NCBI RefSeq assembly: GCF_030315975.1
Contig: NZ_JASXSZ010000004.1
Span: forward strand, 1-64,000
Direction of reading: 5' to 3'
DNA length: 64,000 bases
DNA from: Microbacterium candidum
GTDB lineage: Bacteria > Actinomycetota > Actinomycetes > Actinomycetales > Microbacteriaceae
Shown here: piece after piece, positions 9,373 through 61,081 of the stretch
Layout: each line of letters begins with the position of its first letter
Position numbering within the stretch: the stretch's first letter is position 1
Program-made: the position numbers and the translations under genes
Notes under the pieces: generated by a model
Seen by the model: the letters and a program-made list of their open reading frames with translations, nothing else
The model's database searches: none
Told to the model about the DNA's origin: nothing

Positions 9373-9385
9373 GTGTGCTCCTTGT

Positions 9386-11679: not shown

Positions 11680-11710
11680 GAGCTCCCTCACTCTTGCGTC
11701 GTATCCGAAA

Positions 11711-11724
11711 TCGTATATGATCTG
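11711..11724. promoter_or_regulatory. Candidate GntR operator, transporter/hpa divergent promoter
   Basis: TCGTATATGATCTG is one base away from TCGTATACGATCTG at 15130-15143, in front of the flavin monooxygenase. The core TCGTATACGA is a palindrome of the type bound by FCD-class GntR proteins. It lies in the 122-base gap between the hpa operon and the transporter; TATATGAT may also serve as a -10 element. Confidence 0.5.
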
Positions 11725-11801
11725 AGGTCATCGGACAAGAGTCGAATCGAAGAGGTTCCCCCATCCCTCGATCGGTCTCGCGAAAGACGAAGGAGTCCCG
11801 C

Positions 11802-13184: not shown

Positions 13185-13295
13185 TGCCCGTCGGCTGAGC
13201 GCATCCGCTAGTCCCGTTCGCCGAGCCGGGAATCCGGGTTCGGATCAGGGTTCTCCCGGATCCGCGCGCGTGGTGGATGCTGAGAGTTTGGTGGC

Positions 13296-45485: not shown

Positions 45486-45614
45486 GCGTCGAGCGTAGCC
45501 GTGGAACGGCCGGGGTGCCGCATCCTTCGCGGGCGGTCAAACCCGGCGCGCTCGGCGTCAACTCGGCGGCATCCGTCCCGACGCACAATGGGGGAAACGA
45601 CGAAGGAGACGCCG

Positions 45615-47072
45615 ATGTCCGCTTCTGCCACGACGGCAACCACCTACCCGCTCGACGACAGCGCCCTGCTCGCCCGCGTCCAGGCCACCGAGGGCGAAGG
45701 CCGCGAGATCCTGGATGCCGCGACGCGCGAGGTCATCGGACGGGTGCCGGTGCAGACCGTCGCCGACATGGATGCGGCGATCGCCCGCGCGAAGGCCGCG
45801 CAGCCGGCGTGGGAGGCCCTCGGGCACGAGGAGCGCAGCGCGCTGCTCGTGAAGGCGGCGGACGCCATCGACGCGAACGCCGAAGGGCTTGCGCGGCTCC
45901 TCTCGCGCGAGCAGGGCAAGCCCCTGAACGGACCCAACGCCCGCTTCGAGGTCGGCGCGTGCTCCGCGTGGCTGCGCACCAACGCGGCGACCGTGCTCGA
46001 GCCGCAGGTGCTCGTCGACGACGAGACGCTGCATGCCGAACTCGTCTACAAGGCGGCCGGCGTCGTAGGAGCCATCAGCCCGTGGAACTGGCCGATGATG
46101 ATCTCGATCTGGCAGATCGGGCCGTCGCTGCGGATGGGCAACACCGTCGTCATCAAGCCGAGCAGCAACACGCCGCTGAGCGTCCTCGCCATGGTGTCCG
46201 TCATGAACGACGTGCTGCCCGCCGACGTGCTGATCGGCGTGTCCGGGCCGGGGTCGATCGGCGGCCACCTCGCCGCGCACCCGGACGTCGCCAAGGTCAT
46301 GTTCACCGGCTCCACCGAGGTCGGCCGCAAGATCATCGAGGCCTCCGCCGGCAACCTGGCGCGTCTCACCCTCGAGCTCGGCGGCAACGACGCCGGCATC
46401 GTCCTGCCCGGGACGGACGCTGCGGCCATCGCGCAGGACCTCTTCTGGGGCGCGTTCATCAACACCGGCCAGACGTGCGCCGCGATGAAGCGCCTCTACG
46501 TGCACGACTCCGTCTACGACGACGTCGTCGGCGCACTCGCGGAGATCGCCGCATCCGTGCCGATGGGCAACGGTCTCGACGAGGACAACGTGCTCGGGCC
46601 GTTGCAGAACAAGGACCAGTTCGACATCGTCGCGGGGCTCGTCGAGGACGCGAAGGCCCACGGCGGCCGCGTCGTCACGGGAGGCGAGGCCGCGCCGGAG
46701 CTCGGCGAGCTCTTCTACCGCGCGACGATCGTCGCCGACGTCACGGACGGCGTCGCGCTCGTCGACGAGGAGCAGTTCGGTCCGGTGCTCCCGGTCATCC
46801 GCTACTCCGACGTCGACGACGCGTTCGCCCGCGCCAACGCGGCCGACGTGGGCCTCGGCGCCTCGGTGTGGTCGAGCGACCCCGCGGAAGCCGCGCAGTA
46901 CGCGACGCGGATGCAGTCGGGCACGGTGTGGATCAACTCGCACGGCGGCCTGCACCCGATGGTGCCGTTCGGCGGCATCAAGAGCTCGGGCTACGGCATG
47001 GAGTTCGGCGTCGAGGGGCTGAAGTCCGTCGCGGTGCCGCAGGTCGTGTCCGGGCCCGGACGGAAGGCCTGA
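45615..47072 (+). CDS. NAD-dependent aldehyde dehydrogenase
   Basis: A 485-residue aldehyde dehydrogenase. Marks: GVVGAISPWNWPMMISIWQI (near 145), FTGSTEVGRKIIEASAGN, LTLELGGNDAGIV with the general-base Glu, and NTGQTCAAMKRLYVHD with the catalytic Cys (near 290). AAGGAG precedes the ATG. The GMC oxidoreductase starts three bases after its stop, so an alcohol is probably oxidised to the aldehyde by the GMC enzyme and then to the acid here. Choline is one precedent for such a pair, but neither protein is a clear betaine enzyme. Confidence 0.9.
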   Translation: MSASATTATTYPLDDSALLARVQATEGEGREILDAATREVIGRVPVQTVADMDAAIARAKAAQPAWEALGHEERSALLVKAADAIDANAEGLARLLSREQGKPLNGPNARFEVGACSAWLRTNAATVLEPQVLVDDETLHAELVYKAAGVVGAISPWNWPMMISIWQIGPSLRMGNTVVIKPSSNTPLSVLAMVSVMNDVLPADVLIGVSGPGSIGGHLAAHPDVAKVMFTGSTEVGRKIIEASAGNLARLTLELGGNDAGIVLPGTDAAAIAQDLFWGAFINTGQTCAAMKRLYVHDSVYDDVVGALAEIAASVPMGNGLDEDNVLGPLQNKDQFDIVAGLVEDAKAHGGRVVTGGEAAPELGELFYRATIVADVTDGVALVDEEQFGPVLPVIRYSDVDDAFARANAADVGLGASVWSSDPAEAAQYATRMQSGTVWINSHGGLHPMVPFGGIKSSGYGMEFGVEGLKSVAVPQVVSGPGRKA

Positions 47073-47075
47073 ACC

Positions 47076-48569
47076 GTGACGGCTCCTGCCCACACGGCGA
47101 TCGTCGTCGGCGGCGGATCGGCGGGCGCCGTCGTCGCCCGCCGGCTCGTGGACGCCGGCGTCCGGGTCACCCTGCTCGAAGCGGGCGATGAGGACACCAA
47201 TCCGGCCATCCACGACCCGTCGCGGGCGGGCGAGCTGTGGCACAGTCCGCAGGACTGGGACTACTACACCGTCCCGCAGGCGCACGCCGCGGATCGGCGC
47301 CTGCACCTCCCACGCGGGAAGGTGCTCGGCGGCTCCCACGCCCTCAACGCGATGATCTGGGTGCGCTGCGCGCCGCAGGACTTCGACCACTGGGCGTCGG
47401 TCTCCTCCGATGCGTGGGCATGGGATGCCGTGCGTCCCGTGTACGAGCGGATCGAGGACGTCCTGCCCGTCCTCGGCGACTACCCGCTCGTGCCCATCCA
47501 GCAGTCGATCGTCGACGCGTACGTCGAGGAGGGCGTGCCGCAGAACCCCGACTACAACGGGGAGACGCTCGACGGCGTCTCGCAGGAGCAGGTGACCCTC
47601 GAGGACGGCCACCGCGTCAACACATGGACCGCGTACCTGAAGCCGGTGCGCGATCGGCTCGACATCGTCACCGGCGCGCACGTGCACTCCGTGATCGTCG
47701 AGGACGGCCGTGCGGCGGGCGTGCGGTACCGCGCGGGTGGCTCGGCGGGAGGCGTGGATGCGGACCTCCGCGCCGACACCGTGATCCTGTGCGCCGGCGC
47801 GCTCGACTCGCCGGCGATCCTGCTGCGCTCGGGCATCGGTCCGCGGGCGGAGCTCGAGGAGCTCGGCATCCCGGTCGTGCTCGACGCGCCCGAGGTCGGA
47901 CGGAACCTCCACGACCACCTGCTGTCGCCCGTGATCTTCGCGACCTCGCGTCCGGTCGGCCCGCCTGTGAGTGGTGTGTCGGTGACGCAGACGCATGCGT
48001 TCTGGCGGTCGCGGCCGGAGCTCGAGGTTCCCGACACGCAGCCCATCCACTTCTCGGTGCCGATGTGGGGCGAGCTCGAGCCGCAGGGCGACGACGGGTT
48101 CTCCCTCATGGCCGGGATCGTGTCGCCGCAGAGCCGTGGCGCGCTGCGGCTCACCGGACCGTCGCTCGACGACCCGATCGAGATCGACCTGCAGGCTCTC
48201 GCGGATCCCGACGACGTGCGCGCCCTCGCTGCATCCGTCCGCCAGGTCCGCCGTGTCGGAGCGCAGCCGGCACTCGCGGAGGAGTGGGGCGCGACCGAGG
48301 TGTACCCGGGAGAGGCGGTGCCGGACGACGAGGTCGAGGACTGGGTGCGTCGCACCGCGATCACCTACCACCACCAGGTCGGCACGTGCCGCATGGGGGC
48401 GGATGCGGCGGCTGTCGTCGATCCGCGGCTGCGCGTCAACGGCATCGCCGGACTGCGCGTCGTGGACGCCTCGATCATGCCCCGCATCACGACCGGCAAC
48501 ACCAACGCGCCCGCCGTCATGATCGGCGAGCAGGGCGCAGCCTTCCTGCTGGAGGACCTCGGTAGCTGA
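47076..48569 (+). CDS. GMC family FAD-dependent alcohol oxidoreductase
   Basis: A 497-residue flavoenzyme of the glucose-methanol-choline family. The FAD motif AIVVGGGSAGAVVARRLVDA is at residues 8-27; LPRGKVLGGSHALNAMIWVR and GALDSPAILLRSGIGP are the two family signatures; the catalytic His is in TYHHQVGTCRMG near the C-terminus. The start is a GTG. It follows the aldehyde dehydrogenase after three bases. Length is somewhat short compared with choline dehydrogenase (about 550), so a different alcohol is likely. Confidence 0.92.
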   Translation: MTAPAHTAIVVGGGSAGAVVARRLVDAGVRVTLLEAGDEDTNPAIHDPSRAGELWHSPQDWDYYTVPQAHAADRRLHLPRGKVLGGSHALNAMIWVRCAPQDFDHWASVSSDAWAWDAVRPVYERIEDVLPVLGDYPLVPIQQSIVDAYVEEGVPQNPDYNGETLDGVSQEQVTLEDGHRVNTWTAYLKPVRDRLDIVTGAHVHSVIVEDGRAAGVRYRAGGSAGGVDADLRADTVILCAGALDSPAILLRSGIGPRAELEELGIPVVLDAPEVGRNLHDHLLSPVIFATSRPVGPPVSGVSVTQTHAFWRSRPELEVPDTQPIHFSVPMWGELEPQGDDGFSLMAGIVSPQSRGALRLTGPSLDDPIEIDLQALADPDDVRALAASVRQVRRVGAQPALAEEWGATEVYPGEAVPDDEVEDWVRRTAITYHHQVGTCRMGADAAAVVDPRLRVNGIAGLRVVDASIMPRITTGNTNAPAVMIGEQGAAFLLEDLGS

Positions 48570-48693: not shown

Positions 48694-49599
48694 TTACGCG
48701 GCGGCGAAGGCGAGGAGGCCCGCTCCGATCCGTCCGGCATCCGAGCCGAGCGAGCTGCGCACGACCTGCGGCGGCTCGCGCCACGCGAGCCCGGCCCGCA
48801 TGCGCTCCGCGAGCGGCACGAAGAGCCCGTCCCCCGCCTCCGAGAAGCCGCCGCCGAGCACGATGACGTTCGGGTCGAGGAGGAGGGTCAGGATGTCGAG
48901 ACCCTGCGCGAGCACATCGACGGCCTCGCTCCAGATGCGGTCGGCGAGGGGATCGCGGCCGAGGCGTCCTGCGATCTCCTGCGTGCTGAGCTCCGCGCCC
49001 CCGGCGTTCCGGTAGCGGCGGGCGACGCCCGCGCCGGAGACGTACACCTCGAGGCAGCCGCGCTGCCCGCACGTGCACTGCTCGCCGCCCGGCACGACGG
49101 GGATGTGGCCGAACTCGCCGGCCGCGCCGGTCGCGCCGGTGATGGTGTCGCCCGCCGAGACGAGGGCGGCAGCGACCCCTGTCCCGATCGGCACGAGCAC
49201 GAAGTCCTGCATCGCGCGCGCGGCGCCGACCGTCCGCTCGGCGAGCCCCGCGGCGCGCACGTCGTGGCCGACCGCGACGGGAAGCGCCAGATCGTCGTGA
49301 AGGATGTCGCGAAGGGGGAGGTCGCGCCATCCGAGGTTCGACGCGTAGTGGACGATGCCGCGCGCCTCGTCGAGCATGCCCGGCGTCACGACGCCGGCCG
49401 CGACCACGCGTGCTCCGTTCGCATGGGCCGACGTGCGCAGGTCGCGCAGCAGCGCGCGCAGCGCGCCCACGATCTCCGTCTGCGGGGTCGGGCGCGCGAT
49501 CTCGGCCAGGACGGTGCGATCGTCGCCGACGACCGCGCCCTTCATCGCGGTGCCGCCGAGGTCGACCGCGAGCACCACGGGTCTCCCGGAGGCGGTCAT
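48694..49599 (-). CDS. ROK family sugar kinase
   Basis: A 301-residue ATP-dependent sugar kinase. The ATP motif VLAVDLGGTAMKGAVVGDD is at residues 8-26, GEFGHIPV is the ROK signature, and CTCGQRGCLE binds zinc. ROK kinases phosphorylate glucose, N-acetylglucosamine, N-acetylmannosamine or fructose. There is no helix-turn-helix, so this is an enzyme, not a repressor. It overlaps cutC as ATGA and is the last gene of the ABC-asparaginase operon, so its sugar probably comes from the imported conjugate. Confidence 0.9.
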   Translation of the reverse strand: MTASGRPVVLAVDLGGTAMKGAVVGDDRTVLAEIARPTPQTEIVGALRALLRDLRTSAHANGARVVAAGVVTPGMLDEARGIVHYASNLGWRDLPLRDILHDDLALPVAVGHDVRAAGLAERTVGAARAMQDFVLVPIGTGVAAALVSAGDTITGATGAAGEFGHIPVVPGGEQCTCGQRGCLEVYVSGAGVARRYRNAGGAELSTQEIAGRLGRDPLADRIWSEAVDVLAQGLDILTLLLDPNVIVLGGGFSEAGDGLFVPLAERMRAGLAWREPPQVVRSSLGSDAGRIGAGLLAFAAA

Positions 49600-50333
49600 G
49601 CGGCGGCCCGCCCGAGCGCCGTGAGCACGTCGGCGACCATCCGGCCGGAGGTGACAGCACGGCTCCCGCCGTCGGACGGGCTCGGGGCGCCGGCACTGGG
49701 CACCGTCTCGGCCGCGCGAAGGTGCACCTCGGGGACGGCGGTGGCCGCGACGAGGTCGGCGACGTTGGCGGGCCGCACCCCTCCGCCGGCCAGGACGACG
49801 ATGCGTCCGCCGGCCTCGGCCACGAGCTCCGCGAGCCGGGCGGCTCCCTCGGTCACGGTCGGCGCGCCGCCCGAGGTCAGGACGCGGTGGATGCCGAGGT
49901 CGATGAGCTCCCGGAGGGCGGTGTGCTGATCCGGTACCTGGTCGAACGCCTTGTGGAACGTTGTCTCGGCATCCCCGCAGGCGTCGACGAGGCGTGCCGT
50001 GGCGACCGCATCCACCGTCCCGCCGGGCGTCAGCGCGCCGATCACGAATCCGACCTGCACGCCGGCGGGCCGCGCCAGCGCACGGATGGCGCGGATGTCG
50101 TCGACCATCGCGTCCACCTCGTCCGCCGTGAAGACGAAGTCGCCAGGGCGCTGCCGGATGAGCACGTTGACGCCGATCCGGGTGGCCCGTCGCAGCGCCG
50201 CGGCGACGGTTCCGATCGACGGCGTGATGCCGCCCTCGGCGAGGTCGGCGCACAGCTCGATGCGGTCGGCGCCGGACTCCTCCGCGACGGCGACTCCGGC
50301 GAGGTCCTCCAGGCAGATCTCGACGAGGGTCAC
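49596..50333 (-). CDS. cutC: CutC family TIM-barrel protein
   Basis: A 245-residue protein of the CutC family. Segments EICLEDLAGVAVAEESGADR, IELCADLAEGGITPSIG, NVLIRQRPGDFVFTADEVD and RVLTSGGAPTVTEGAARL are diagnostic. The family name refers to copper homeostasis in E. coli, but a copper role is doubted and the fold is that of an enzyme. It overlaps the asparaginase by four bases (GTGA) and the kinase by four, so it is made together with a sugar kinase and an amidohydrolase. That favours a metabolic role in this operon. Confidence 0.9.
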   Translation of the reverse strand: MTLVEICLEDLAGVAVAEESGADRIELCADLAEGGITPSIGTVAAALRRATRIGVNVLIRQRPGDFVFTADEVDAMVDDIRAIRALARPAGVQVGFVIGALTPGGTVDAVATARLVDACGDAETTFHKAFDQVPDQHTALRELIDLGIHRVLTSGGAPTVTEGAARLAELVAEAGGRIVVLAGGGVRPANVADLVAATAVPEVHLRAAETVPSAGAPSPSDGGSRAVTSGRMVADVLTALGRAAA

Positions 50334-51319
50334 GCGCGGTGCTCCGCGCGCGCGGCGAGCGCGTCGGCGAGGTCGGCGCCGAGCTCGATCGAGCCGACGG
50401 GCGCCCCGCCGCCGAGGATCGGGATCCGTGTCAGCGGCTGCGCTCCCGCGATGTCGGCGCCGAGCGCGTCCAGCACGCGCAGCGCGATGAGCGTGGTGGC
50501 GCGCGGACTGCCGTCGACGATCTTCATGGAGACGGCGGTTCCATCCGCGGCGGCCACCCCGATGACACCCTCGGCGCCGCCCTTCGCGAGCGCGCCCGGC
50601 ATGCCCTCCATGAGCGCCGAGTTCTGGTGCCCGGTTCCGCCCACGTAGAACGGATGCTGCCGCATCGCGTCGGCGACGCCACGCTCCGGCGAGCCCTCGG
50701 GCGCCTGAACGAGCCGCCCGAACGCGCGGGCGATGCCGCGGACCGTCGTCCCGAACAGCGGTGCGCCGCATCCATCGATCGCGTCGTGCCCGACGGGCGC
50801 GCCGGTGACCTCCGCCATCGTGGCGCGCACATGCTGCTGGAGAGGGTGGTGCAGGTCGAGGTAGTCGTGCGTCGACCAGCCGTTCGCCGCACATGCGAGC
50901 AGCATCGCCGCGTGCTTGCCGGAGCAGTTCATCCGGACGCGCGTGCGCGGCTCGCCGGCGCGCACGAGCTGCTCGAACGTCGCCTCGTCCTCGGGTCGGT
51001 CGACCGGGCAGCCGAGGGCGCCCTCGTCGAGGCCGGCGCGCTCGAGGATCCCGCGCACGACGCGGACGTGCTCGTCCTCGCCGGTGTGGCTGCCCGCGGC
51101 GATCGCCAGCTCGGGTCCCTCGAGCGCCGCGCCCGCCGTGAGGCACGCGAGCGCCTGCAGCGGCTTGACGGTGCTGCGGGGGAGGACGACGTCGTCGGGC
51201 GCGCCGAGCTCGAGGAGCGCCCTGCCGTCCGGAGCGGTCGCGACGAGCGTGCCGAAGTGGCGGCTCTCGACGAGTCCGGATCGGACGACGACGGCGAGCT
51301 CGGACAGGGATGCGGTCAT
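50330..51319 (-). CDS. Asparaginase (Asparaginase_II, Rhizobium type)
   Basis: A 329-residue amidohydrolase of the Rhizobium etli type-II-like asparaginase family, unrelated to E. coli AnsA/B. Diagnostic stretches are LPRSTVKPLQALACL (near 48), GSHTGEDEHVRVV, MNCSGKHAAMLLACA (near 130) and DGCGAPLFGTTVRGIA. The Ser-Thr-Val-Lys and Ser-Gly-Lys residues belong to its serine-lysine active site. Both ends overlap neighbours by four bases. In this setting it may act on an asparagine side chain bearing a sugar rather than on free asparagine; that is inference. Confidence 0.9.
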   Translation of the reverse strand: MTASLSELAVVVRSGLVESRHFGTLVATAPDGRALLELGAPDDVVLPRSTVKPLQALACLTAGAALEGPELAIAAGSHTGEDEHVRVVRGILERAGLDEGALGCPVDRPEDEATFEQLVRAGEPRTRVRMNCSGKHAAMLLACAANGWSTHDYLDLHHPLQQHVRATMAEVTGAPVGHDAIDGCGAPLFGTTVRGIARAFGRLVQAPEGSPERGVADAMRQHPFYVGGTGHQNSALMEGMPGALAKGGAEGVIGVAAADGTAVSMKIVDGSPRATTLIALRVLDALGADIAGAQPLTRIPILGGGAPVGSIELGADLADALAARAEHRA

Positions 51320-52245
51320 TCTGGGGCCTTCGCGTTGTGGACCGCCGGGAGGGCGGGGAGGACGGGCTGCGCCGAGGGGCGGCGCCGCGGTCCGTGCTGG
51401 AGCCGGGACGCCACGGCGGAGAGGCTGCCGTTGACGACGAGGTAGATGAAGGTCACGACGAGGTACGTCGGGATGAGGAGGTGCAGGTAGGAGGCCAGCA
51501 CCTGGCCGCGGTACAGCAGCTCCGTGAACGCCACGATGTAGCCCAGCGAGGTGTCTTTCAGGAGGCTCACGAACTGCGTGACGAGCGAGGGCGCGACGTT
51601 GCGGGCGGCCTGCGGCAGCACGACGTAGCGCATCGCCTGGGTCGGCCGCATGCCGAGGCTCAGCGCGGCCTCGCGCTGGCCCCGGGGCAGGCTCAGGATG
51701 CCGGCGCGCAGGATCTCCGCGAACACAGCGGAGTTCGCCGCCGTCAGCGGGATCACCAGCTGCCAGATCGTCGGCAGCGTGAGCCCGAGCTGCGGCAGGC
51801 CGAAGAGCATGAGGTAGATGAGCAGCAGCACCGGCACGGTGCGCGCGATCTCGATGTACGCGCCGCACAGGCGGCTCACCCAACGGACGCCGCTCACGCG
51901 GCCGAGCGCGAGGAGGATCCCCAGGGCGCCGCCGAGGACGGCGACGATCGCGGCGGCGAACAGCGTGCCCATGAGCCCGATGAGGAGGTACTCCCAGATC
52001 GCCCACTCGGTGAACGGAGCCCAGCGCGCCGGGTCGAGCTGTCCGTGGGAGGCGAACTGCCAGAGCCCGAACGCGATGAAGGCGGCGATGATCAGGCAGC
52101 TCACGACGGAGCCGAGGAGGATGCGGCGGCGGCCGCGGGGACCCGGGGTGTCGTACATGAACGACGCGGCGTACGCCCGGCGGGGGCGTCGCGGCTTGCG
52201 GGGCTGCCGCACGTCGACGCGGTCGGGGATGAGCTGAGCGGTCAT
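51316..52245 (-). CDS. Polar amino acid ABC transporter permease (GluD-like)
   Basis: A 309-residue membrane permease of the His/Glu/Gln family. A cytosolic N-terminus of about 40 residues and an extra helix (LLGSVVSCLIIAAFIAFGLW) precede the core of about five helices. The EAA loop that binds the ATPase is visible in REAALSLGMRPTQAMRYVVL followed by PQAARNVAPS. It resembles corynebacterial GluD. It overlaps the other permease and the asparaginase by four bases each. Confidence 0.92.
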   Translation of the reverse strand: MTAQLIPDRVDVRQPRKPRRPRRAYAASFMYDTPGPRGRRRILLGSVVSCLIIAAFIAFGLWQFASHGQLDPARWAPFTEWAIWEYLLIGLMGTLFAAAIVAVLGGALGILLALGRVSGVRWVSRLCGAYIEIARTVPVLLLIYLMLFGLPQLGLTLPTIWQLVIPLTAANSAVFAEILRAGILSLPRGQREAALSLGMRPTQAMRYVVLPQAARNVAPSLVTQFVSLLKDTSLGYIVAFTELLYRGQVLASYLHLLIPTYLVVTFIYLVVNGSLSAVASRLQHGPRRRPSAQPVLPALPAVHNAKAPE

Positions 52246-52886
52246 CGGACGATCGCCACCTTTCGTTCGACCCATCCGGCCCCGAGGCCGATCGCCAGCG
52301 CGATCGCCATGTAGATGAGGCCTGCGGTCGAGAAGATCAGGATCGGCTGGGCGGCGACGAGGTTGATCTTGTTGACCTCGGCGGTGAGCTCGACGACGCC
52401 GACCGCGGCGGCGAGCGCCGTGTTCATGGCGAGCGCGATCATGACGTTGCCGATCGGCTGCACGACGGCCCGGAGGGCCTGCGGCACGACGACGAACCGC
52501 AGGGTCTGGCCGAGCCCGAATCCGAGGGCGCGCGCGGCCTCGACCTGCCCCACCGGGATGGTGTTCACGCCCGAGCGCACGGCCTCGGCGACGTACGCGG
52601 CCTCGTAGACGGTGAGGACGATGATGGCGGTCGGGGTGAGCGGCAGCATCAGCCCGGCGTCGGGGAGCGCGAAGACCGCCAGCAGCAGCAGTGCCAGCAG
52701 CGGCACGTTGATGAAGAACTGCACGTAGAGGAAGGCGGCGGAGCGCAGGACGGGGATGGGGCTCACGCGCGCGATCGTGACCAGGATGCCCAGCAGGATG
52801 GATCCGATGCCGGCGATGACGGCCATCATCAGGGTGGTGCCGAGCGCCTGGAGGATCGGTCCCAGGTTGTCGATCAGAGCGTTCAT
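52242..52886 (-). CDS. Polar amino acid ABC transporter permease (GluC-like)
   Basis: A 214-residue membrane permease, partner of the GluD-like protein. The hydrophobic start IGSILLGILVTIARVSPIPV and the EAA loop VEAARALGFGLGQTLRFVVV with PQALRAVVQP are typical. Length matches GluC (about 225). The start lies 87 bases after the binding-protein gene. Together the two permeases should form the heterodimeric channel. Confidence 0.92.
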   Translation of the reverse strand: MNALIDNLGPILQALGTTLMMAVIAGIGSILLGILVTIARVSPIPVLRSAAFLYVQFFINVPLLALLLLAVFALPDAGLMLPLTPTAIIVLTVYEAAYVAEAVRSGVNTIPVGQVEAARALGFGLGQTLRFVVVPQALRAVVQPIGNVMIALAMNTALAAAVGVVELTAEVNKINLVAAQPILIFSTAGLIYMAIALAIGLGAGWVERKVAIVR

Positions 52887-52973
52887 TCCTCGACTCCGTC
52901 AGGGGGAAGCGGACAGGCGGCCGCCGAGCGCCAGGGGAGGTCGCCCTCCCTGGGCGCCCGGCGGCCGAAGCGG

Positions 52974-53921
52974 TCAGGAGCCCGGGACGGACCCGATCTC
53001 CGGCGGGGTCGGAGCGGACCCGTCGGTCACCGTGCCGAGGCTGGCCTGCCAGGCCTTGGCCCACTGGCCGCCGGACTGGATCGCCTTCAGCCACGTGTTG
53101 ATGAACGACTTGAACTGGCTGTCGCCGTGCTGCAGGCCGATGCCGTAGGGCTCCTTCGTGAAGGGGTTGCCGACGACCTTGATCTGCTTCTCGCTCGCAG
53201 CGTCGCTCGCCAGCAGCGTGTAGTCCTGCACGTACGCGTCGCCGCGGCCCTGGATGAGGGCCTGGACGGCTGCCGGGTCGGTCGCGAAGGCGGTGACCTT
53301 CGCGGTCGGCGCGACGTTGGGCACCTCGGTCACGGCCGGCGTGTTGGCGCCGACGATGACGTTCTTGCCGTCGAGGTCCTTCTCGCTCTTGATGCTCTTG
53401 TTGTCGCTCTTGACGGCGACGGCGAGGCCGGACTCGAAGTACGGGCCGGCGAAGTCGATCTGCTCGGCGCGCTGCGGCGTGATCGTGTAGGTGTTGAACA
53501 CGACGTCGACGGTGCCGTTCTGGAGCATCGCCTCACGCGTCTCGGATGCCGGCGGCACGATCTCGACGTTGGGCTTGCCGAGGATGTAGATCGCGAGGAG
53601 CTTCGCGAGGTCGGCGTCGAAGCCGTTGACCTGGCTCGGGTCGGTCGGGTTCTGCTGCGAGAGCAGGGGAGCGTCGAGCGCCTCGGCGACGATGAGCTTG
53701 CCGCGCTTCTTGATCTTCTCCATGGTCGAACCGGGGATGATCGCGGCGACGTCGGCGACGGGTGCGCCGGCGAAGACCGAGTCGGCGGCGGACGGGCTGG
53801 AGCCGGAGCCCGAGCCGGGAAGGCTCGTGCCACCGCTGGAGCACGCCGTGACGGCGAGTGCGACCGCGGTGAGCAGGATGCCGGCGACCGTCGCCTTCCT
53901 GCGGGTGATGCTGCGGGTCAT
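52974..53921 (-). CDS. Amino acid ABC transporter substrate-binding lipoprotein
   Basis: A 315-residue lipoprotein. The signal peptide ends in the lipobox LAVTACSSGG, with acylation at Cys27. The mature part is an SBP_bac_3 domain: IKKRGKLIVAEALDAPL, VNGFDADLAKLLAIYILGKP, TVDVVFNTYTITPQRAEQID and FAGPYFESGLAVAVKSDNKS. The nearest precedent is corynebacterial GluB. Ligand-contact residues cannot be judged by eye, so a glutamate, aspartate or conjugate ligand is possible. Confidence 0.92.
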   Translation of the reverse strand: MTRSITRRKATVAGILLTAVALAVTACSSGGTSLPGSGSGSSPSAADSVFAGAPVADVAAIIPGSTMEKIKKRGKLIVAEALDAPLLSQQNPTDPSQVNGFDADLAKLLAIYILGKPNVEIVPPASETREAMLQNGTVDVVFNTYTITPQRAEQIDFAGPYFESGLAVAVKSDNKSIKSEKDLDGKNVIVGANTPAVTEVPNVAPTAKVTAFATDPAAVQALIQGRGDAYVQDYTLLASDAASEKQIKVVGNPFTKEPYGIGLQHGDSQFKSFINTWLKAIQSGGQWAKAWQASLGTVTDGSAPTPPEIGSVPGS

Positions 53922-53964
53922 GTGTTGCTTTCCCTTCGTTGGGTGTGGGTTTTTCGGGTGCGGG

Positions 53965-54717
53965 TCAGTGGGCGAGGACGGAGGCGAGGAACGTCTGCGC
54001 GCGCTCGGAACGGGGGGAGTCGAAGAACTCGGCGGGCGGTGCCTGCTCGACGATCTGGCCGCGGTCCATGAAGACGACGCGGTCGGCGGCGCGACGGGCG
54101 AAGCCCATCTCGTGGGTGACGACGATCATCGTCATCCCCTCCTTGGCGAGAGATGTCATGACATCGAGGACCTCGCCGACCATCTCGGGGTCGAGCGCGC
54201 TCGTCGGCTCGTCGAAGAGCATCACCTTGGGGTGCATCGCGAGGGCGCGGGCGATCGCCGCGCGCTGCTGCTGGCCGCCGGAGAGCTGGGCGGGATGGCT
54301 GTTCGCCTTGTCGGCGATCCCGACGCGGTCGAGGAGCTGCATCGCCTCGCGCCGCGCGTCCGCCTTCTTCGCGCCGCGGACCTTGAGGGGCGCGAGCGAC
54401 ACGTTGTCGAGGATCGTGCGGTGCGCGAAGAGGTTGAACGACTGGAACACCATGCCGACCTCGGCGCGCAGCCGCGCGAGCGCCGCACCCTCTTCGGGGA
54501 GGAGCTCGCCGTCGACGCGGATCTCGCCGGCGTCGATCGTCTCGAGGCGGTTGATCGAGCGGCACAGCGTCGACTTCCCGGAGCCCGAAGGGCCGACGAC
54601 GACCACGACTTCGCGGGCGGCGACGTCGAGGTCGATGTCGCGGAGGACGTGAAGGTCACCGAAGTGCTTGTCGACTCCGCGCAGGCTGACCATGGGCTGC
54701 GCATCCGTTGCTGACAT
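53965..54717 (-). CDS. Amino acid ABC transporter ATP-binding protein
   Basis: A 250-residue ATPase. Walker A is GPSGSGKST (near 42), the Q-loop [15 protein letters not shown], the signature [16 protein letters not shown], Walker [14 protein letters not shown] and the switch His in VVTHEMGFA. It energises the two permeases downstream. The ATG at 54717 is preceded by AAGGAAAACGG. It is the first gene of the operon and starts about 150 bases from the divergent ROK repressor gene. Confidence 0.94.
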
Positions 54718-54785
54718 CCGTTTTCCTTGCATCTTCGACGAGGTTGCTGCGATGAGCGTACTAACAATGGCATCAAAGATGCAAT

Positions 54786-54812
54786 ATCGACTTTGAATAC
54801 TCCAAAATCGAT
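54786..54812. promoter_or_regulatory. Candidate ROK-repressor operator
   Basis: A 27-base imperfect palindrome: ATCGACTTTG on the left and CAAAATCGAT on the right, around AATACTC, with 10 of 13 base pairs symmetric. It lies in an AT-rich island between the ABC operon and the ROK regulator, suited to control both. Confidence 0.6.
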
Positions 54813-54866
54813 CTAAACTCGGCTACAGTATTCTCATCCCAACCGGTGGACGAGAGGATCGGCGCG

Positions 54867-56048
54867 ATGACGAGCCCCGCAGAAGCGGCACCGCCCAGCA
54901 GCTCCAGCGCAGGCGCGATCCTCGATCTCGTCCGCAGCGGGCGCGCGCGCTCCCGGGCCGAGATCGCCCGCAGCACGGGGCTCAGCCCGTCGACGGTCGC
55001 GCAGCGCGTCGACGGCCTCATCGGCGCGGGACTCGTGCGCGAGGCGGGTGAGGGCGTCTCCGCGCGGGGGCGCCGGCCGCGCGCCCTCGAGATCGACGCG
55101 TCCGCGGGTGTCGTCTGCGCCGTCGACCTGGGCTCCCACCACGCGACTTTCGGCCTCGTCGACATCTCCGGGCGCCTGCTCGCCGTCCGCTCCGAGCCGA
55201 TGGACATCGCGGACGGCCCCGATCGGGTGCTGCGGTGGATCGTGACGATCGCCGACGAGATGGTCGCCGCGCACGCGGAGCCGGGGCAGACGCTGCGCGG
55301 CTACGGCATCGGTCTCCCCGGTCCCGTGGACTCGAACACGGGGGAGATGGTGTCTCCGTCGCGCATGCCCGGGTGGAAGGGCGTGGATGCCGCGGGCCTC
55401 CTCGCCTCCCTGACCTCGCTTCCGGTCGCCGTCGACAACGATGCCAACCTCATGGCGCTGGGCGAGCACGCGGCGCTCGACGCCGACGCGCAGCACCTCG
55501 TCTTCGTGAAGGCGGGCTCCAGCATCGGCTGCGGCGTGATCGCCTTCGGCGGGCTCTACCACGGACACCACGGGATGGCCGGCGACATCAGCCACGTGAC
55601 GGTCCCGGGCGGCCCTCAGGTCCTGTGTTCGTGCGGCCGGATCGGCTGCCTCGACGCCGTCGCCGGGGGTGCCGCCATCGTGACCGCCCTCCGCGATGCG
55701 GGGGTCGAGGTCGCCGATGCGCGCGACGTCGTCGCGCTCGCCCGCGACGCGCACCCCCGTGCGACGCTCATGCTGCGGGAGGCGGGGCTCCGGGTCGGGA
55801 GCGTGCTCGCGACCATCATGAACTTCTACAACCCGCAGCGACTCGTGCTCGGCGGCATCCTCGGCGAGGCCGAGGCGTTCGTCGCAGGCGTCCGCTCGTC
55901 GCTGTACTCCGACTGCCTGCCGATGATCACCGACGAGCTCGAGATCACGGTGAGCGTCGCGAAGGAGAAGGCAGGCATCCTCGGCGCCGCGCATCTCGTC
56001 CTGGACGAGCTCTTCGATCACGGTCGCGTCGAACAGCTCGTGCGATGA
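54867..56048 (+). CDS. ROK family transcriptional repressor
   Basis: A 393-residue regulator. The N-terminal winged helix (residues about 13-75: RSRAEIARSTGLSPSTVAQR, VDGLIGAGLV) is followed by a ROK sugar-binding domain with VCAVDLGSHHATFGLVD and the zinc motif CSCGRIGCLD. NagC and XylR of this type sense sugars or sugar phosphates. The ATG at 54867 follows GAGAGGA. It overlaps the next gene by four bases. The likely target is the divergent ABC-asparaginase-CutC-kinase operon. Confidence 0.92.
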   Translation: MTSPAEAAPPSSSSAGAILDLVRSGRARSRAEIARSTGLSPSTVAQRVDGLIGAGLVREAGEGVSARGRRPRALEIDASAGVVCAVDLGSHHATFGLVDISGRLLAVRSEPMDIADGPDRVLRWIVTIADEMVAAHAEPGQTLRGYGIGLPGPVDSNTGEMVSPSRMPGWKGVDAAGLLASLTSLPVAVDNDANLMALGEHAALDADAQHLVFVKAGSSIGCGVIAFGGLYHGHHGMAGDISHVTVPGGPQVLCSCGRIGCLDAVAGGAAIVTALRDAGVEVADARDVVALARDAHPRATLMLREAGLRVGSVLATIMNFYNPQRLVLGGILGEAEAFVAGVRSSLYSDCLPMITDELEITVSVAKEKAGILGAAHLVLDELFDHGRVEQLVR

Positions 56049-56983
56049 CCTCGGGTCACGCCGTCGCCGTCGCCGTCTTCGGTGCGGGGCGGATGGCGCG
56101 CGCCCACGCCACGGCGTGGGCGGCGCTCGGCGTGCCGGTGCGGTGGATCGTCTCCCCGCGGCGCCGACAGGAGCTGTGGGACGACGCCGAACTCGGGCTC
56201 GGATCCGCGCGATGGACCGACGACCCGGCCGAGGCGCTCGCGGATGCAGACGTGACGATCGCCTCCATCTGCACGCCGACGCCGACCCACCGACTGCTGG
56301 CCGAACAGGCGCTTCGCGCCGGCCGGCACGTGCTGCTCGAGAAGCCGATCGCGCTCACCCTCGAGGACGCACTCGCGCTGCAGACGGTCGCGGACGAGGC
56401 ACCCGGCATCCTGATGGTCGCCCACGTCGTGCGGTTCTTCGCCGGCTACGCGGAGCTCGCGGATCGGATCGCGGCGGGGGCCGTCGGGCGCCCGCGCGCA
56501 GTCCAGGCGCACCGGCTGTCGGCTGCGCCGGAGGGCGCGGACTGGCTGCACGACGAGGAGCGCTCAGGCGGCGTGCTCGTGGACTTCGCCATCCATGACC
56601 TCGACCAGGCGAACGCCGTCCTCGGCCGCCCCATCGCCGTCACGAGCATCGCGGCCGGTGGAGTCGGCACGGGGTTCGACGGTGCGATCTCCACGACCGT
56701 CGAATACGCCGACGGCGGGGTCGCGCAGGTGCTGAGTGCGGTGGATCTGCCCGCCGGGACCCCGTTCCGCACCGGGTTCACGGTCGTGGGGACGGACGGG
56801 GTGGATGCGGCGGCCGGAGCGGACGGAGACCCGTTCGTCGCGCAGGCCGCGTACTTCCTCGCATGCGTCGAGTCGGGCGCCGCACCGCGGCGCGCACCGG
56901 TGTCTGCTGCGGTCGCGGCCCTGCGGCTCGCCCTCGCCGCCCGGGAGTCCTTGCACTCCGGGCGGCGAGTCGAGCTGTCGTGA
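56045..56983 (+). CDS. Gfo/Idh/MocA family NAD(P)-dependent oxidoreductase
   Basis: A 312-residue sugar dehydrogenase-like protein. The Rossmann motif AVFGAGRMARAHATAWA is near residue 10, SICTPTPTHRLLAEQALRAG near 75, and the EKPIA motif (HVLLEKPIALTLEDA) near 98. The C-terminal domain has SGGVLVDFAIHDLDQ, with the conserved Asp/His. Relatives oxidise or reduce sugars, inositols and sugar phosphates. It overlaps the ROK repressor by four bases and so belongs to the same locus. Confidence 0.9.
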   Translation: MTSGHAVAVAVFGAGRMARAHATAWAALGVPVRWIVSPRRRQELWDDAELGLGSARWTDDPAEALADADVTIASICTPTPTHRLLAEQALRAGRHVLLEKPIALTLEDALALQTVADEAPGILMVAHVVRFFAGYAELADRIAAGAVGRPRAVQAHRLSAAPEGADWLHDEERSGGVLVDFAIHDLDQANAVLGRPIAVTSIAAGGVGTGFDGAISTTVEYADGGVAQVLSAVDLPAGTPFRTGFTVVGTDGVDAAAGADGDPFVAQAAYFLACVESGAAPRRAPVSAAVAALRLALAARESLHSGRRVELS

Positions 56984-56990
56984 CCTCGCC

Positions 56991-58631
56991 TCAGGCCGCG
57001 TAGACCCGCCGGCCGGCGAACCACGTCTCGAGCACGCGGGTCCGGATGATCTCCTCAGCCCGGCCGGCGACGAGGTCGCTGTCGAGGATGACGAAGTCGG
57101 CGGACTTTCCGGGGGAGAGCGAACCGGTGACGTCGCCGAGCCCCATCGCGCGCGCAGCGTTGATCGTGAAGACCTCGAGCGCCTCCTGCGCGGTGATCGC
57201 CTGCTCAGGCCACAGGACTCCCGGCGCGCGTCCGAGCGGATCGGCCCGGGTCACGAGCCCCTGCATCCCCTCGAACGGGTTCGGCGACTCGCTCACCGGC
57301 CAGTCCGAGCCGCCGGCCACGAGTCCGCCCGCGTCGAGGATCGAGCGGTTCGGCTGCGAGTGCTCCGCGCGATCCCCGAGGACCGCGGCGAGGGCGTCCG
57401 GGATGACGCCGGGGAACCAGAGGAACGGCGAGATGTCCGCCGCGATCCGCAGGCGGGCCAGACGCTCGATGTCGTCGCCCGCGAGGAACTGGCCGTGCGC
57501 CATCTGGAACAGCGTGTCGGTGTATCCCTCGCCGCGCAGTCGCTCGACGACATCGATCAGCATGCGCGCCGAACCGTCGCCCGTGACGTGCACCTTGGCG
57601 CCGAGACCGCGCTCGGCGACCGCGTGCAGCCATGCGTACAGCTCGTCGGCATCCATCGTGGTGGTGCCGTGGAAGTGTGCGCCGTGCACGTCGTCCGGAA
57701 GATACGGATCGAGGAACAGAGCCGTCCGCGCGGGCGGCACGCCGTCGAGGAAGATCTTCACGAAGTCGGGGCGATGGTGCGGGGAGCGGAACTCCTCGCC
57801 GCGCGCGATGAGCTCGTGCCCGATCAGCTCGTAGCCGAAGATCTCGTCGTTGATCGTGATCGACGACACCACCCACGCGTTCAGGTCACCCGTGTCGTCG
57901 AGCGACTTCAGGGCGCCGAGGATGTCGATGGAGACCGCCGCATCCTGGAACGCCGTCACGCCGTAGGCGTTCAGGAGCTCGACACCGCGCGCCGACGCGC
58001 GGCGGTGCTGGTCGGGGGTGAGCCCGCCGGCCTCCGACTGCGCCCGCGCGACGAGGAGGCCGGCCGCCTCCAGCAGAACCCCGCTCGGCTCGCCGTCCGC
58101 GGCATCCAGGAGCGTCACTCCCTCGGACGGGATCGCCTCGCGGGAGATCCCCGCGAGCTCGAGCGCCCGCGAGTTCACCCAGCGGTTGTGGTGGCTGTCG
58201 TCGGAGAGCATGACGGGCCGGCCGCCGGATGCCTCGTCGAGGCGCAGCCGTGCGGAGGTCGTGTTGAGCTCGTCCATGAGGGTCGACGCCCACGATCCGC
58301 CGGTGATCCACGCCGCCTCGGGCAGCCCCGCCGCATGCTCCCGCACGAGGTCGAGGATCTCGTCGAGCGTCAATGCGACGCCGAACGAGAGCTCGAACAG
58401 GTCGGTCACCCCCGCGACGGCGTGGTGGTTGTGCACATCGACGAAGCCCGGGTACAGCGCGGCTCCGCCGAGGTCGCGCACCTCCGTGTCCGGCCCGCGG
58501 TGAGCGAGCACGTCGGCGGCGGTGCCCACGGCGACGATGCGGCCGTCCGCGACGGCGATCGCCTCGGCGACCGGGTGCGTACGGTCGGCCGTGCGGACGA
58601 CCCCGCCGGTGAGGATGAGATCGGCGGTCAT
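56991..58631 (-). CDS. Amidohydrolase family protein (YtcJ/AepA-like)
   Basis: A 546-residue metal-dependent hydrolase. Motifs: GFVDVHNHHAVAGV (near 62) with metal His, DDSHHNRWVNSRAL, FVKIFLDGVPPARTALFLDP with the bridging Lys position, AKVHVTGDGSARMLID, and AGGSDWPVSESPNPFEGMQ with a terminal Asp. This pattern is that of the YtcJ-like group, whose substrates are mostly unknown amides. It overlaps the MoaF-like gene by four bases and is the last gene of the APC permease operon. Confidence 0.88.
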   Translation of the reverse strand: MTADLILTGGVVRTADRTHPVAEAIAVADGRIVAVGTAADVLAHRGPDTEVRDLGGAALYPGFVDVHNHHAVAGVTDLFELSFGVALTLDEILDLVREHAAGLPEAAWITGGSWASTLMDELNTTSARLRLDEASGGRPVMLSDDSHHNRWVNSRALELAGISREAIPSEGVTLLDAADGEPSGVLLEAAGLLVARAQSEAGGLTPDQHRRASARGVELLNAYGVTAFQDAAVSIDILGALKSLDDTGDLNAWVVSSITINDEIFGYELIGHELIARGEEFRSPHHRPDFVKIFLDGVPPARTALFLDPYLPDDVHGAHFHGTTTMDADELYAWLHAVAERGLGAKVHVTGDGSARMLIDVVERLRGEGYTDTLFQMAHGQFLAGDDIERLARLRIAADISPFLWFPGVIPDALAAVLGDRAEHSQPNRSILDAGGLVAGGSDWPVSESPNPFEGMQGLVTRADPLGRAPGVLWPEQAITAQEALEVFTINAARAMGLGDVTGSLSPGKSADFVILDSDLVAGRAEEIIRTRVLETWFAGRRVYAA

Positions 58632-59476
58632 CGCGCGAGCGGGCGGGCCGGGTCGTACTCGTCGGGGTGGACGGTCGTCGAGATGAGACGGCCGTGCGCG
58701 CCGAAGGTGAAGTGCGTCGGGCGGGCCGTCGCATCCTCCGCCTCGCCGAACAGCACCCCGTGCGAGCGGATCGACTTCGCGTCGCGGTGGTCCGCGATCG
58801 TGATCGAGCCGCACGGGATGACGCCCTCGCGCCACGTGAAGACGTAGATGCCCGGGCGCATCCGGTACACGGTGTTCTCGTCCGTGTCCGCGAGGCCCTG
58901 CTCGGGACCGGCGAGGCACTGCCACGTGTACCAGTGCGGCGAGAGGTAGACGTGCTCGTACGCGTGCTGGCTCGAGTACACCCAGAGGACGCGGCGCCCG
59001 ATGAGCTCGAGCGTCGGGGCGGGCGGCTCGCCGACTCCGTCCTCGATCTCCGCGATGCGGGCGACGGTGAAGAGGTGCTGCACGGCGACCTTGTCGACGG
59101 TGCGCTCGCCGAGGACGGCGAGGACCGCGAGGGCGTGGCCGCTGCGCAGGTCCAGGAAGAGCGACACCGACTCGTTCGGGGCGTAGTCGTCGCCGTGGTG
59201 GAACTGTGCGTAGTAGAGGTCGTCGTCGACTTCGATGACCTCGCACTCGTCGGTCTGGGCGGCCGCCGGGATCGGGTCGCCCTCGCCCGGCTCGTACGTC
59301 CACGAGACGGTTCCGGCGCCGAACGTGTGCGCGATGCGCGTGCCGCGCTCGTCGACGAGGGTGAGCGTGCGGCCTTCGAGGTCGTTCGACAGCGGCGCCT
59401 TGCTCGCGTCGAAGCCGGGGGCGAGGCCGTCGAGCGGCAGCCACGTGGACGTGTCGGAGAGATTCACGTCGGTCAT
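58628..59476 (-). CDS. MoaF-like protein
   Basis: A 282-residue beta-rich protein resembling MoaF, first named from the Klebsiella monoamine regulon. Segments GRTLTLVDERGTRIAHTFGA, VSWTYEPGEGDPIP, VSLFLDLRSGHALAVLAVLG and HWYTWQCLAGPEQGLADTDE look like two calycin-like repeats (N-terminal MoaF and C-terminal MoaF_C). AAAGGAAC lies before the ATG. It stands between an amino acid/amine permease and an amidohydrolase, which agrees with amine or amide use. The catalytic role is unknown. Confidence 0.7.
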   Translation of the reverse strand: MTDVNLSDTSTWLPLDGLAPGFDASKAPLSNDLEGRTLTLVDERGTRIAHTFGAGTVSWTYEPGEGDPIPAAAQTDECEVIEVDDDLYYAQFHHGDDYAPNESVSLFLDLRSGHALAVLAVLGERTVDKVAVQHLFTVARIAEIEDGVGEPPAPTLELIGRRVLWVYSSQHAYEHVYLSPHWYTWQCLAGPEQGLADTDENTVYRMRPGIYVFTWREGVIPCGSITIADHRDAKSIRSHGVLFGEAEDATARPTHFTFGAHGRLISTTVHPDEYDPARPLAR

Positions 59477-59504
59477 ATCGGTTCCTTTCGGAGGGTGTGC
59501 GGGC

Positions 59505-60977
59505 TCAGAAGCCGGGGACGGGGTCCTTGCCCCGTTCGGCCGCGTGGACGTTGAACTTCTCGAGGTCGGTGGCGAGGGCGTCGTAGACGTCGGGCTTCTT
59601 CCTCTTGAGCACGGCTCCGTAGACGATGCCGCCGATCCCCGCGAGGACGAGCAGCCACGGGAGGCTCAGGATGACCGGGTTGTCGGAGCCGGCGACCACG
59701 CTGAAGTTGAAGGTCGCGAGGAGCGCGATCGACAGCAGCCCGAGGAAGCCGAGGCCGGGGGCGATGAACGTCGACCACCAGCGCGGATCGCGCTGCCGCC
59801 GGAACCACACGACGATCGAGAGCGCCGCGAGGGTCTGCAGGACGATGACCGACAGCGTGCCGATGCCGAGCATCGAGGGGACGACGACGAGCATCGGGTC
59901 GAGCCCGGCGAGCGCGAAGCATCCCGCGACGATCGCGCCGAAGCCAGCCTGCACCGCGCCCGCGATCTGGGGCGCGCCGTTCTTGCGCGTGCGGGCGAGG
60001 ATGCTCGGCAGGATGCGTGCGCGCCCGAGCGAATACAGGTAGCGGGTCGCGGAGTTGTGGAACGCGAGCATCGCGGCGAAGAGGCTCACGAGCAGCAGGA
60101 TCGTGGCGATCACCGCCATCGGCTGGCCGAGGTACTGCCCGATGAGCGAGAACAGCAGGTCGCCGGCCTCGAGGTGCTTCTGCGCCGTGGCCTGCGCCTG
60201 GGCGACGCCGGTCGCGCTGACGACGGCCCACGTGGAGACGCCGAGGATGAGTGCGATCGCGATGATCGCCGTGTAGGTGGCGCGCGGGATCGTGCGGAGC
60301 GGATTCTTCGCCTCCTCGCTGAACAGCGCCGTCGCCTCGAAGCCGAGGTAGCCGGTCGCGGCCAGCAGCAGGCCGATGGGGAACGAGCCGGAGAAGACCG
60401 CCGCGGGGCTGAAGGCCGCCCACGAGTAGCCCGTCTGCACGAGCACGGAGATGTCGAACACGATGAGGATCGTGGTCTCGAGGATCAGCGAGACGCCGAG
60501 GATCTTCGAGCTGAAGTCGACGCCGGTGCGCCCCATCCAGAAGCAGACCGCGATCGACAGCAGGCCCCACAGGTACCAGCTCATGTTGAAGCCGGTGTAC
60601 TGGGCGATGATCGTCTGCATGAAGAAGCCGCTCGTGCCGATCGTGCCGACCACGAAGAGGTTGTAGCCGAGCGTCGCGATGAGACCGGCGATCAGGCCGC
60701 CGGTGCGCCCGAGGCCCTTCACGACGAAGGCGTAGAACCCGCCCGCGTTCGCGAGCTGCTTCGACATCTGGGCGTAGCCGATCGCGAACAGCAGCAGGAT
60801 GATCGCGACGATGAAGAAGGATGCGGGTGCCCCGCCGCCGTTGCCGAACGCGATGACGAGGGAGGCCACGACGACGATGCCCGTCAGGGGCGCGACGGCG
60901 GCGAGGACGAGGAAGACGATGCTGGCGACGCCGAGCGTATTGCCGCGCAGGCTCGTTCCGGTGGAGGGTTCGGTCAC
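59505..60977 (-). CDS. APC family amino acid/amine permease
   Basis: A 490-residue membrane transporter with about twelve helices of the amino acid-polyamine-organocation family. SIVFLVLAAVAPLTGIVVVA begins helix 1; AIGYAQMSKQLANAGGFYAF and GLGRTGGLIAGLIATLGYN are typical; GFEATALFSEEAKNPLRTIP is the conserved APC motif. GTG start with AAAGGAG six bases upstream. It leads the operon with the MoaF-like and amidohydrolase genes and is divergent from two dehydrogenases. The substrate is likely a neutral amine, amide or amino acid. Confidence 0.9.
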   Translation of the reverse strand: MTEPSTGTSLRGNTLGVASIVFLVLAAVAPLTGIVVVASLVIAFGNGGGAPASFFIVAIILLLFAIGYAQMSKQLANAGGFYAFVVKGLGRTGGLIAGLIATLGYNLFVVGTIGTSGFFMQTIIAQYTGFNMSWYLWGLLSIAVCFWMGRTGVDFSSKILGVSLILETTILIVFDISVLVQTGYSWAAFSPAAVFSGSFPIGLLLAATGYLGFEATALFSEEAKNPLRTIPRATYTAIIAIALILGVSTWAVVSATGVAQAQATAQKHLEAGDLLFSLIGQYLGQPMAVIATILLLVSLFAAMLAFHNSATRYLYSLGRARILPSILARTRKNGAPQIAGAVQAGFGAIVAGCFALAGLDPMLVVVPSMLGIGTLSVIVLQTLAALSIVVWFRRQRDPRWWSTFIAPGLGFLGLLSIALLATFNFSVVAGSDNPVILSLPWLLVLAGIGGIVYGAVLKRKKPDVYDALATDLEKFNVHAAERGKDPVPGF

Positions 60978-61081
60978 GTCGGCTCCTTTGCCGCTGTCGG
61001 TGGGGGACGGGTCTCGGGTGGCCCGCTCTTCGATTGTGTGCTTCCGGCGCGCGCGGCGCTTGACCCTCAGCGTCCGGGCCT

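Follow-up and report, generated by a model that had tools for sequence, protein, structure and literature searches.

A conserved CutC gene block of Microbacteriaceae as a candidate operon for N-acetylglucosamine-asparagine catabolism

The described systems closest to the locus reported here are two gene clusters for the use of sugar-asparagine conjugates. The fra locus of Salmonella employs an asparaginase homolog and a sugar kinase for fructose-asparagine; the kinase is of the PfkB type and is accompanied by a SIS deglycase. CutC proteins are conserved from bacteria to people, and to our knowledge no reaction is known for the family. The alf-2 cluster of Lactobacillus casei serves the catabolism of fucosyl-N-acetylglucosaminyl-asparagine (fucosyl-GlcNAc-Asn); Becerra et al. 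(PMC6960285) report that its glycosylasparaginase acts on GlcNAc-Asn and its ROK kinase on GlcNAc, and they call the released 1-amino-GlcNAc ‘not metabolizable’, with spontaneous decay at acidic pH. The window, i.e., the 64,000 nucleotides of Microbacterium candidum contig NZ_JASXSZ010000004.1 analyzed here, contains a gene block in which cutC stands between a ROK-family sugar kinase gene (Kin) and a class 3 asparaginase gene (AspII), behind an amino acid importer. Genome context suggests that this block is a catabolic operon for GlcNAc-Asn, the stub left from N-glycoprotein degradation, with CutC as a glycosylamine hydrolase, a reading toward which we lean with modest confidence.

The block runs along the minus strand (54732–48694) in the transcription order ATPase, solute-binding protein (SBP), permeases P1 and P2, AspII, CutC, and ROK kinase (Table 1). 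An earlier note on this DNA had described kinase, CutC, asparaginase, and both permeases as overlapping head to tail by four bases, and the coordinates bear this out: the shared nucleotides are ATGA for Kin/CutC, GTGA for CutC/AspII, and ATGA for AspII/P2 and P2/P1. The binding protein and ATPase, which it took to complete the unit, do so, with SBP_bac_3 and ABC_tran domains in a Pfam scan of ten window proteins and short gaps of 87 nt (P1–SBP) and 43 nt (SBP–ATPase). Across a further 113 nt, and on the plus strand, the ROK repressor (RokR) and the Gfo/Idh oxidoreductase (Gfo), themselves overlapping by ATGA, diverge from the unit as it had stated, their families being assigned by Pfam.

This arrangement is conserved. 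Among 299 genomes of the family Microbacteriaceae, CutC was detected in 81 with the window copy as query, a search that may miss divergent copies. The 89 CutC regions fetched include the second copy of the M. candidum genome; together with the window, 89 of 90 have a callable CutC, and L257, with no CutC call, was left out. Five further genomes of the family (L033–L037) retain RokR and the seven-gene block with a separate Kin; their proteins are 59–91% identical to those of the window outside CutC and Gfo, and CutC 54–68%. Another 10 genomes retain them with CutC fused to Kin. A block conserved in this way is more than a chance arrangement. AspII occurs in 16 of the 89 loci, every time with an adjoining RokR homolog and kinase, and CutC–ROK kinase fusions in 15. 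A NagB-like gene (BLAST) lies within 8 kb of CutC in 18 loci and a glycoside hydrolase family 29 (GH29) gene lies near it in eight; locus labels for NagB, M81, GH20, and GH29 come from BLAST to references checked by Pfam. Outside the family, the same gene order is found in Micromonospora and Microbispora (L080, L089, and L090), without a kinase next to CutC, and in an uncultured actinomycete (L085), with a kinase fused to CutC. Since Gfo adjoins the AspII-type block in only four of 16 family loci (the window and L033–L035), plus L074 and L075, it is regarded as accessory, and a core enzymatic role for it was rejected.

In the proposed route, the ATP-binding cassette (ABC) importer would recognize the free amino acid end of GlcNAc-Asn and bring it in, AspII would cut the side-chain amide to give aspartate and 1-amino-GlcNAc, and CutC would hydrolyze the latter to GlcNAc and ammonia. 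Phosphorylation by the ROK kinase would yield GlcNAc-6-phosphate, to be converted to fructose-6-phosphate by NagA and NagB encoded elsewhere in the genome, and RokR would act as a sugar-sensing repressor. Every catalytic step and substrate here is a prediction from genome context. In the SBP, the Arg of TPQR and the Asp of DAYVQD have identical counterparts in an alignment with amino-acid-type binding proteins, where they presumably grip the α-amino acid group; these residues suggest a ligand with an unmodified α-amino acid end, which fits GlcNAc-Asn, whose amino acid end is free. The kinase carries PF00480, a CTCGQRGC stretch that we take to be the zinc motif of the ROK class, and an Asp aligned to the ENDA Asp of glucokinase 3vov. 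AspII has the two Ser-Lys pairs and zinc-binding Cys-Lys-Cys of class 3 asparaginases (alignment to 8cly and 7os3), residues described as essential in ReAV (PMC8602277). The window amidase matches PF06089 only, and Pfam found no PF01112-type glycosylasparaginase domain in it. A second AspII is encoded elsewhere in the genome and could serve free asparagine, so that the locus AspII need not. Between 23 locus AspII copies and 17 paralogs elsewhere in such genomes, 12 positions are group-specific, and no sugar pocket is readable among them.

The sugar entering the pathway is probably GlcNAc. At L044, AspII (8592–9632), the CutC-kinase fusion (9629–11404), NagB (11401–12171), and NagA (12168–13307) form one operon, each gene overlapping the next by 4 nt, and this sharing of an operon makes GlcNAc the most likely sugar. 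The L044 NagA scores over its own equivalog cut-off; NagB scores over an NCBIfam subfamily cut-off and under that of the nagB equivalog TIGR00502. All 21 locus genomes examined, including that of M. candidum, contain nagA as well as a PF01182 protein. A role of CutC as a stand-in for NagA, i.e., a deacetylase, was rejected on this count of nagA. The idea in the earlier note of a route for a sugar-amino acid conjugate is thus supported by genome context and narrowed to GlcNAc-Asn by the L044 genes, by the exchange of AspII for M81, and by glycosylasparaginase-like and glycoside hydrolase neighbors.

CutC is assigned to glycosylamine hydrolysis by elimination, because the block together with NagA and NagB leaves CutC without a role and that step without an enzyme. 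Its AlphaFold2 model is a confident TIM barrel (mean pLDDT 97.6) that aligns with human CUTC (3iwp_D) with a Z score of 36.0 and a root-mean-square deviation of 1.4 over 238 residues. With its PF03932 match, this barrel, and the conserved Glu, Arg, and His, the window copy belongs to the CutC family. Across 60 diverse CutCs, Glu5, Arg24, Glu26, Arg60, Asp131, and His204 are among the invariant residues, and Arg62 and His127 are almost invariant; the conserved residues lie in barrel strands or a few residues from them, and human CUTC keeps Glu5, Glu26, Arg60, Arg62, His127, and His204. Such a pattern is that of an enzyme, and does not by itself tell which one; the fold neighbors are many TIM barrels of no single function. 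A literature search, judged mostly from search listings, found no reaction named for CutC, no paper joining CutC with glycosylasparaginase or with glycosylamine or 1-amino-GlcNAc, none on a ‘CutC family’ with TIM barrel, and none joining the copper homeostasis protein CutC with glucosaminyl; CutC with MlrC gave only a false match inside a reference list.

The amidase slot behind the same importer is exchangeable, being filled by AspII or by an M81 (MlrC-type) hydrolase. M81 lies near CutC in 28 of the 89 family loci, and no locus has both M81 and AspII. At L040, L042, L043, and L052, RokR, the importer, CutC-Kin, and NagB are kept, with M81 downstream and no AspII; all four come from one genus group (g8) and possibly reflect one replacement event. 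M81 was detected in 36 of the 299 family genomes, i.e., in 30 of 81 CutC-positive genomes versus 6 of 218 others (Fisher p 5e-14, uncorrected for relatedness). At 295 bits or more it is found in 30 genomes, all 30 CutC-positive, and by coordinates in 29 of them it lies within about 10 kb of CutC; in G283 the two are on separate contigs. High-scoring M81 proteins (DUF1485/MlrC; L040, L056, L071, L094, and others) are thus confined to CutC-positive genomes in the sampled family and nearly always adjoin CutC, a distribution that points to a physiological role for this otherwise microcystin-named family. Further M81 loci carry GH29 fucosidase genes, ABC genes of the sugar or dipeptide type, and ROK kinases. 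An aspartate dehydrogenase (over its equivalog cut-off) adjoins CutC at L047, where it could plausibly act on the aspartate released.

The CutC-amidase pairing extends in part to other phyla. A cross-phylum scan of genome contigs gave 80 loci, 76 with a callable CutC (L100, L123, L132, and L143 were left out); this set and the family set probably overlap by two loci (L095/L096 = L048/L047). An asparaginase-type or M81 gene lies within 8 kb of CutC in 21 of the 76. The survey of cutC neighbors that had been proposed, with ROK kinases and amidases in mind, turned up both: among 140 immediate neighbors assigned by Pfam (10 proteins of more than 900 aa left out), there were seven Asparaginase_II, seven ROK, five MlrC_C, five Transglut_core, four Asparaginase_2, three GH20, two GH29, and two Asparaginase domains. 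GNAT acetyltransferases were the most frequent (8), largely from one rhizobial neighborhood as judged by reading the loci. A PF00710 asparaginase near CutC in three of the 76 loci is too few for support.

In a sample of 247 Bacteroidota genomes, CutC occurs in 76 and PF01112, a family wider than glycosylasparaginase, in 179: 75 of the 76 CutC genomes versus 104 of 171 others. From the 78 CutC regions fetched, 76 were callable (L182 and L231 were left out). In 36 of these 76 loci, CutC has a glycosylasparaginase-like gene within 4 kb, adjacent in 32 and on the same strand in 30, where a uniform model with two assumed copies per genome gives a chance expectation of about 0.35. The label derives from BLAST to four PF01112-type neighbors, two of them Pfam-checked and one compared with a solved glycosylasparaginase; that copy, from L147, scores 407 bits against the solved enzyme and at most 138 against other superfamily enzymes. 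At L215, a ROK kinase, PF01112, and CutC stand in a row, with PF01112 overlapping CutC, and GH2 β-mannosidase-like genes lie beside or near CutC at L183, L196, L201, L206, and L207 (L183 and L207 Pfam-checked). These glycosylasparaginase-like, GH29 fucosidase, GH20 hexosaminidase, and GH2 neighbors favor N-glycan stubs (GlcNAc-Asn) over fructose-asparagine as the substrate. On a CutC tree of 239 of 241 rows (two of less than 180 residues dropped), the nearest named CutCs come from Leifsonia. Its starred branches require a minimum of 12 changes for M81, 8 for the glycosylasparaginase-like gene, and 5 for AspII, so that gain or loss of the pairing has been recurrent. Seven of the 76 cross-phylum loci, all of Bacteroidales (L092, L101, L106, L108, L121, L139, and L140), have a large L139-type protein beside or near CutC. 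The transglutaminase core PF01841 was found in the two of these proteins scanned with Pfam, and they may be similar to peptide:N-glycanase.

Several observations weigh against the GlcNAc-Asn operon. The L. casei cluster manages without CutC, and acceptance of an N-glycosylated amide by the locus AspII is a prediction. The operon in the window itself lacks NagA and NagB, both of which lie elsewhere in the genome. Nearby AspII, M81, PF01112, and PF00710 genes are missing, by BLAST to the references used, from 45 of the 89 family loci and 40 of the 76 Bacteroidota loci; about half of the family loci have a CutC with neither amidase nor kinase nearby, possibly a housekeeping copy. No kinase adjoins CutC in three of the seven cross-phylum AspII loci (L080, L089, and L090). 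Among 296 actinobacterial genomes, M81 exceeds the cut-off in 7 of 27 CutC-positive genomes versus 9 of 269 others, and by coordinates only two of the seven genomes holding both have them adjacent; across the phylum Actinomycetota the association is enriched yet no operon rule, and looser than in the family. The Bacteroidota glycosylasparaginase (e.g., of L147) starts with a signal-like stretch (by eye) and CutC does not, so the two may act in different compartments. Finally, the Bacillus CutC (4r9x) lacks Glu5, and the family may therefore not be uniform.

CutC might instead act at another step of the same pathway, as an epimerase, mutarotase, or ring-opening enzyme of the sugar or its 6-phosphate, before or after the kinase. 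A sugar or sugar-phosphate step would agree with the fusion of CutC to a ROK kinase. Outside its own family, the closest structural matches of CutC include MJ1099, a hexulose-phosphate synthase, TrpF, and pyridoxine phosphate synthase, mostly enzymes of phosphorylated ligands; TrpF acts on an N-glycosylamine. However, GlcNAc-6-phosphate needs only NagA and NagB, both present, and amidase partners would be superfluous for a general GlcNAc step, which leaves this alternative possible but doubtful. Uptake and deamidation of free asparagine, aspartate, or glutamate, with the sugar genes and CutC there for another reason, would suit the polar amino acid type of the importer and the asparaginase catalytic residues retained by AspII; it is nevertheless improbable, as it leaves the CutC-kinase fusion, NagB/NagA, the fucosidase and hexosaminidase neighbors, and the replacement of AspII by M81 unexplained, in a genome with another AspII. 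The historical name speaks for a copper-handling CutC placed in the operon by chance. Yet the phenotype on which the copper label rests, the copper tolerance of Escherichia coli upon cutC overexpression, is now credited to the sigma-E response (PMC6338753). The small RNA MicL is annotated as overlapping cutC, and cutC deletion prevents MicL transcription (PMC8216713). The 25 commonest of 164 CutC neighbor families include no copper-protein family, and this explanation is scarcely credible; the claim of the earlier note that CutC is an enzyme of the route and not a copper protein is instead favored by the kinase fusion and amidase neighbors.

The remaining alternatives concern the substrate. 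An asparaginase and a sugar kinase in one block recall the use of Amadori compounds, with fructose-asparagine as in Salmonella fra, which had been offered as an example next to glycosyl-asparagine. This was rejected as very unlikely, since no PfkB kinase or SIS deglycase domain was found among the ten window proteins scanned; in addition, NagA and NagB at L044 fit an N-acetylhexosamine, and the SBP residues argue for an unmodified amino acid end. Only the glycosyl-asparagine half of that pair of examples is therefore retained. A peptidoglycan fragment, with amino sugar and peptide, would account for the ROK kinase, NagB, and the dipeptide-type ABC system of some CutC loci, but glycosylasparaginase, GH29 fucosidase, and GH2 β-mannosidase fit N-glycans, and no MurQ-type SIS domain occurs among the ten proteins, so that such a substrate seems unlikely.

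If the GlcNAc-Asn operon is real, CutC would supply the enzyme for the sole step of GlcNAc-Asn catabolism that the published pathway leaves to spontaneous decay, and the M81 family would gain a likely physiological role. The pairing of CutC with several unrelated amidase families, its fusion to a ROK kinase, and its operon with NagB and NagA point to a concrete, cheaply testable reaction and would indicate what to assay for human CUTC. Cytosolic peptide:N-glycanase releases 1-amino-glycans. Much more tentatively, all of the following may hold together: CutC including human CUTC hydrolyzes glycosylamines (1-amino sugars to sugar and ammonia), M81 (MlrC/DUF1485) beside CutC and this class 3 asparaginase branch are new, unrelated glycosylasparaginases, and human CUTC clears cytosolic 1-amino-glycans.

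Table 1. Genes of the CutC block and its divergent neighbors in the window.
Feature	Coordinates	Strand	Domain evidence
ROK sugar kinase (Kin), predicted GlcNAc kinase	48694..49599	-	PF00480 1.4e-61
CutC, TIM barrel, predicted 1-amino-GlcNAc (glycosylamine) hydrolase	49596..50333	-	PF03932 2.1e-60
Class 3 asparaginase (AspII), predicted to cut GlcNAc-Asn	50330..51319	-	PF06089 2.7e-102
ABC permease P2, polar amino acid type	51316..52245	-	PF00528; HEQRo_perm_3TM over cut-off
ABC permease P1, polar amino acid type	52242..52886	-	PF00528; HEQRo_perm_3TM over cut-off
Solute-binding protein (SBP), family 3, lipobox by eye	52974..53921	-	SBP_bac_3 PF00497 2e-21
ABC ATPase	53965..54732	-	PF00005; nearest NCBIfam GlnQ, below GlnQ cut-off
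ROK-family repressor (RokR), divergent	54846..56048	+	PF00480 + HTH
Gfo/Idh/MocA oxidoreductase (Gfo), accessory	56045..56983	+	PF01408, PF22725

Just past the kinase, the plus strand of the window (45588–48569) holds a frame resembling an aldehyde dehydrogenase (by eye), then a GMC oxidoreductase; beyond Gfo, the minus strand (56991–60980) carries overlapping genes for an Amidohydro_3 metal hydrolase and a MoaF protein and, after them, one for an amino acid permease. The second cutC of the genome (L254, G000:C4:605500-622200, 7958–8695) lies in a different neighborhood without amidase or kinase. Many of the 45 amidase-less family loci have a second CutC type between ilvC-like and serA-like genes (by eye). 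At L155 (1826–3772), the protein encoded after CutC combines a NagB domain with a PIG-L de-N-acetylase domain.

Compared with alf-2, the window block is alike in glyco-amino acid import, a GlcNAc-Asn amidase, a ROK kinase, and a dedicated regulator, functions that in the window are predicted from the genes; the kinase, active on GlcNAc in L. casei, has its counterpart in the PF00480 protein, for which the same activity is predicted. The parts differ, however: the major facilitator superfamily permease AlfH is replaced by an ABC importer, the PF01112-type glycosylasparaginase by PF06089 AspII, and the GntR regulator by a ROK regulator; the fucosidase AlfC has no GH29 counterpart among the ten window proteins scanned, and CutC, present in the window block, is not among the listed genes of alf-2. 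With Salmonella fra, the block shares an asparaginase homolog and a sugar kinase for a predicted sugar-asparagine conjugate, but nothing among the ten window proteins scanned corresponds to the PfkB kinase or the SIS deglycase. The window CutC shares the fold and the six residues listed above with known CutC and human CUTC structures (1twd and 3iwp), but unlike these it belongs to an operon-borne, often kinase-fused branch. Likewise, AspII has the sequence family and the Ser-Lys and Cys-Lys-Cys residues of the class 3 L-asparaginases ReAIV and ReAV, from which it differs in its predicted substrate, GlcNAc-Asn.

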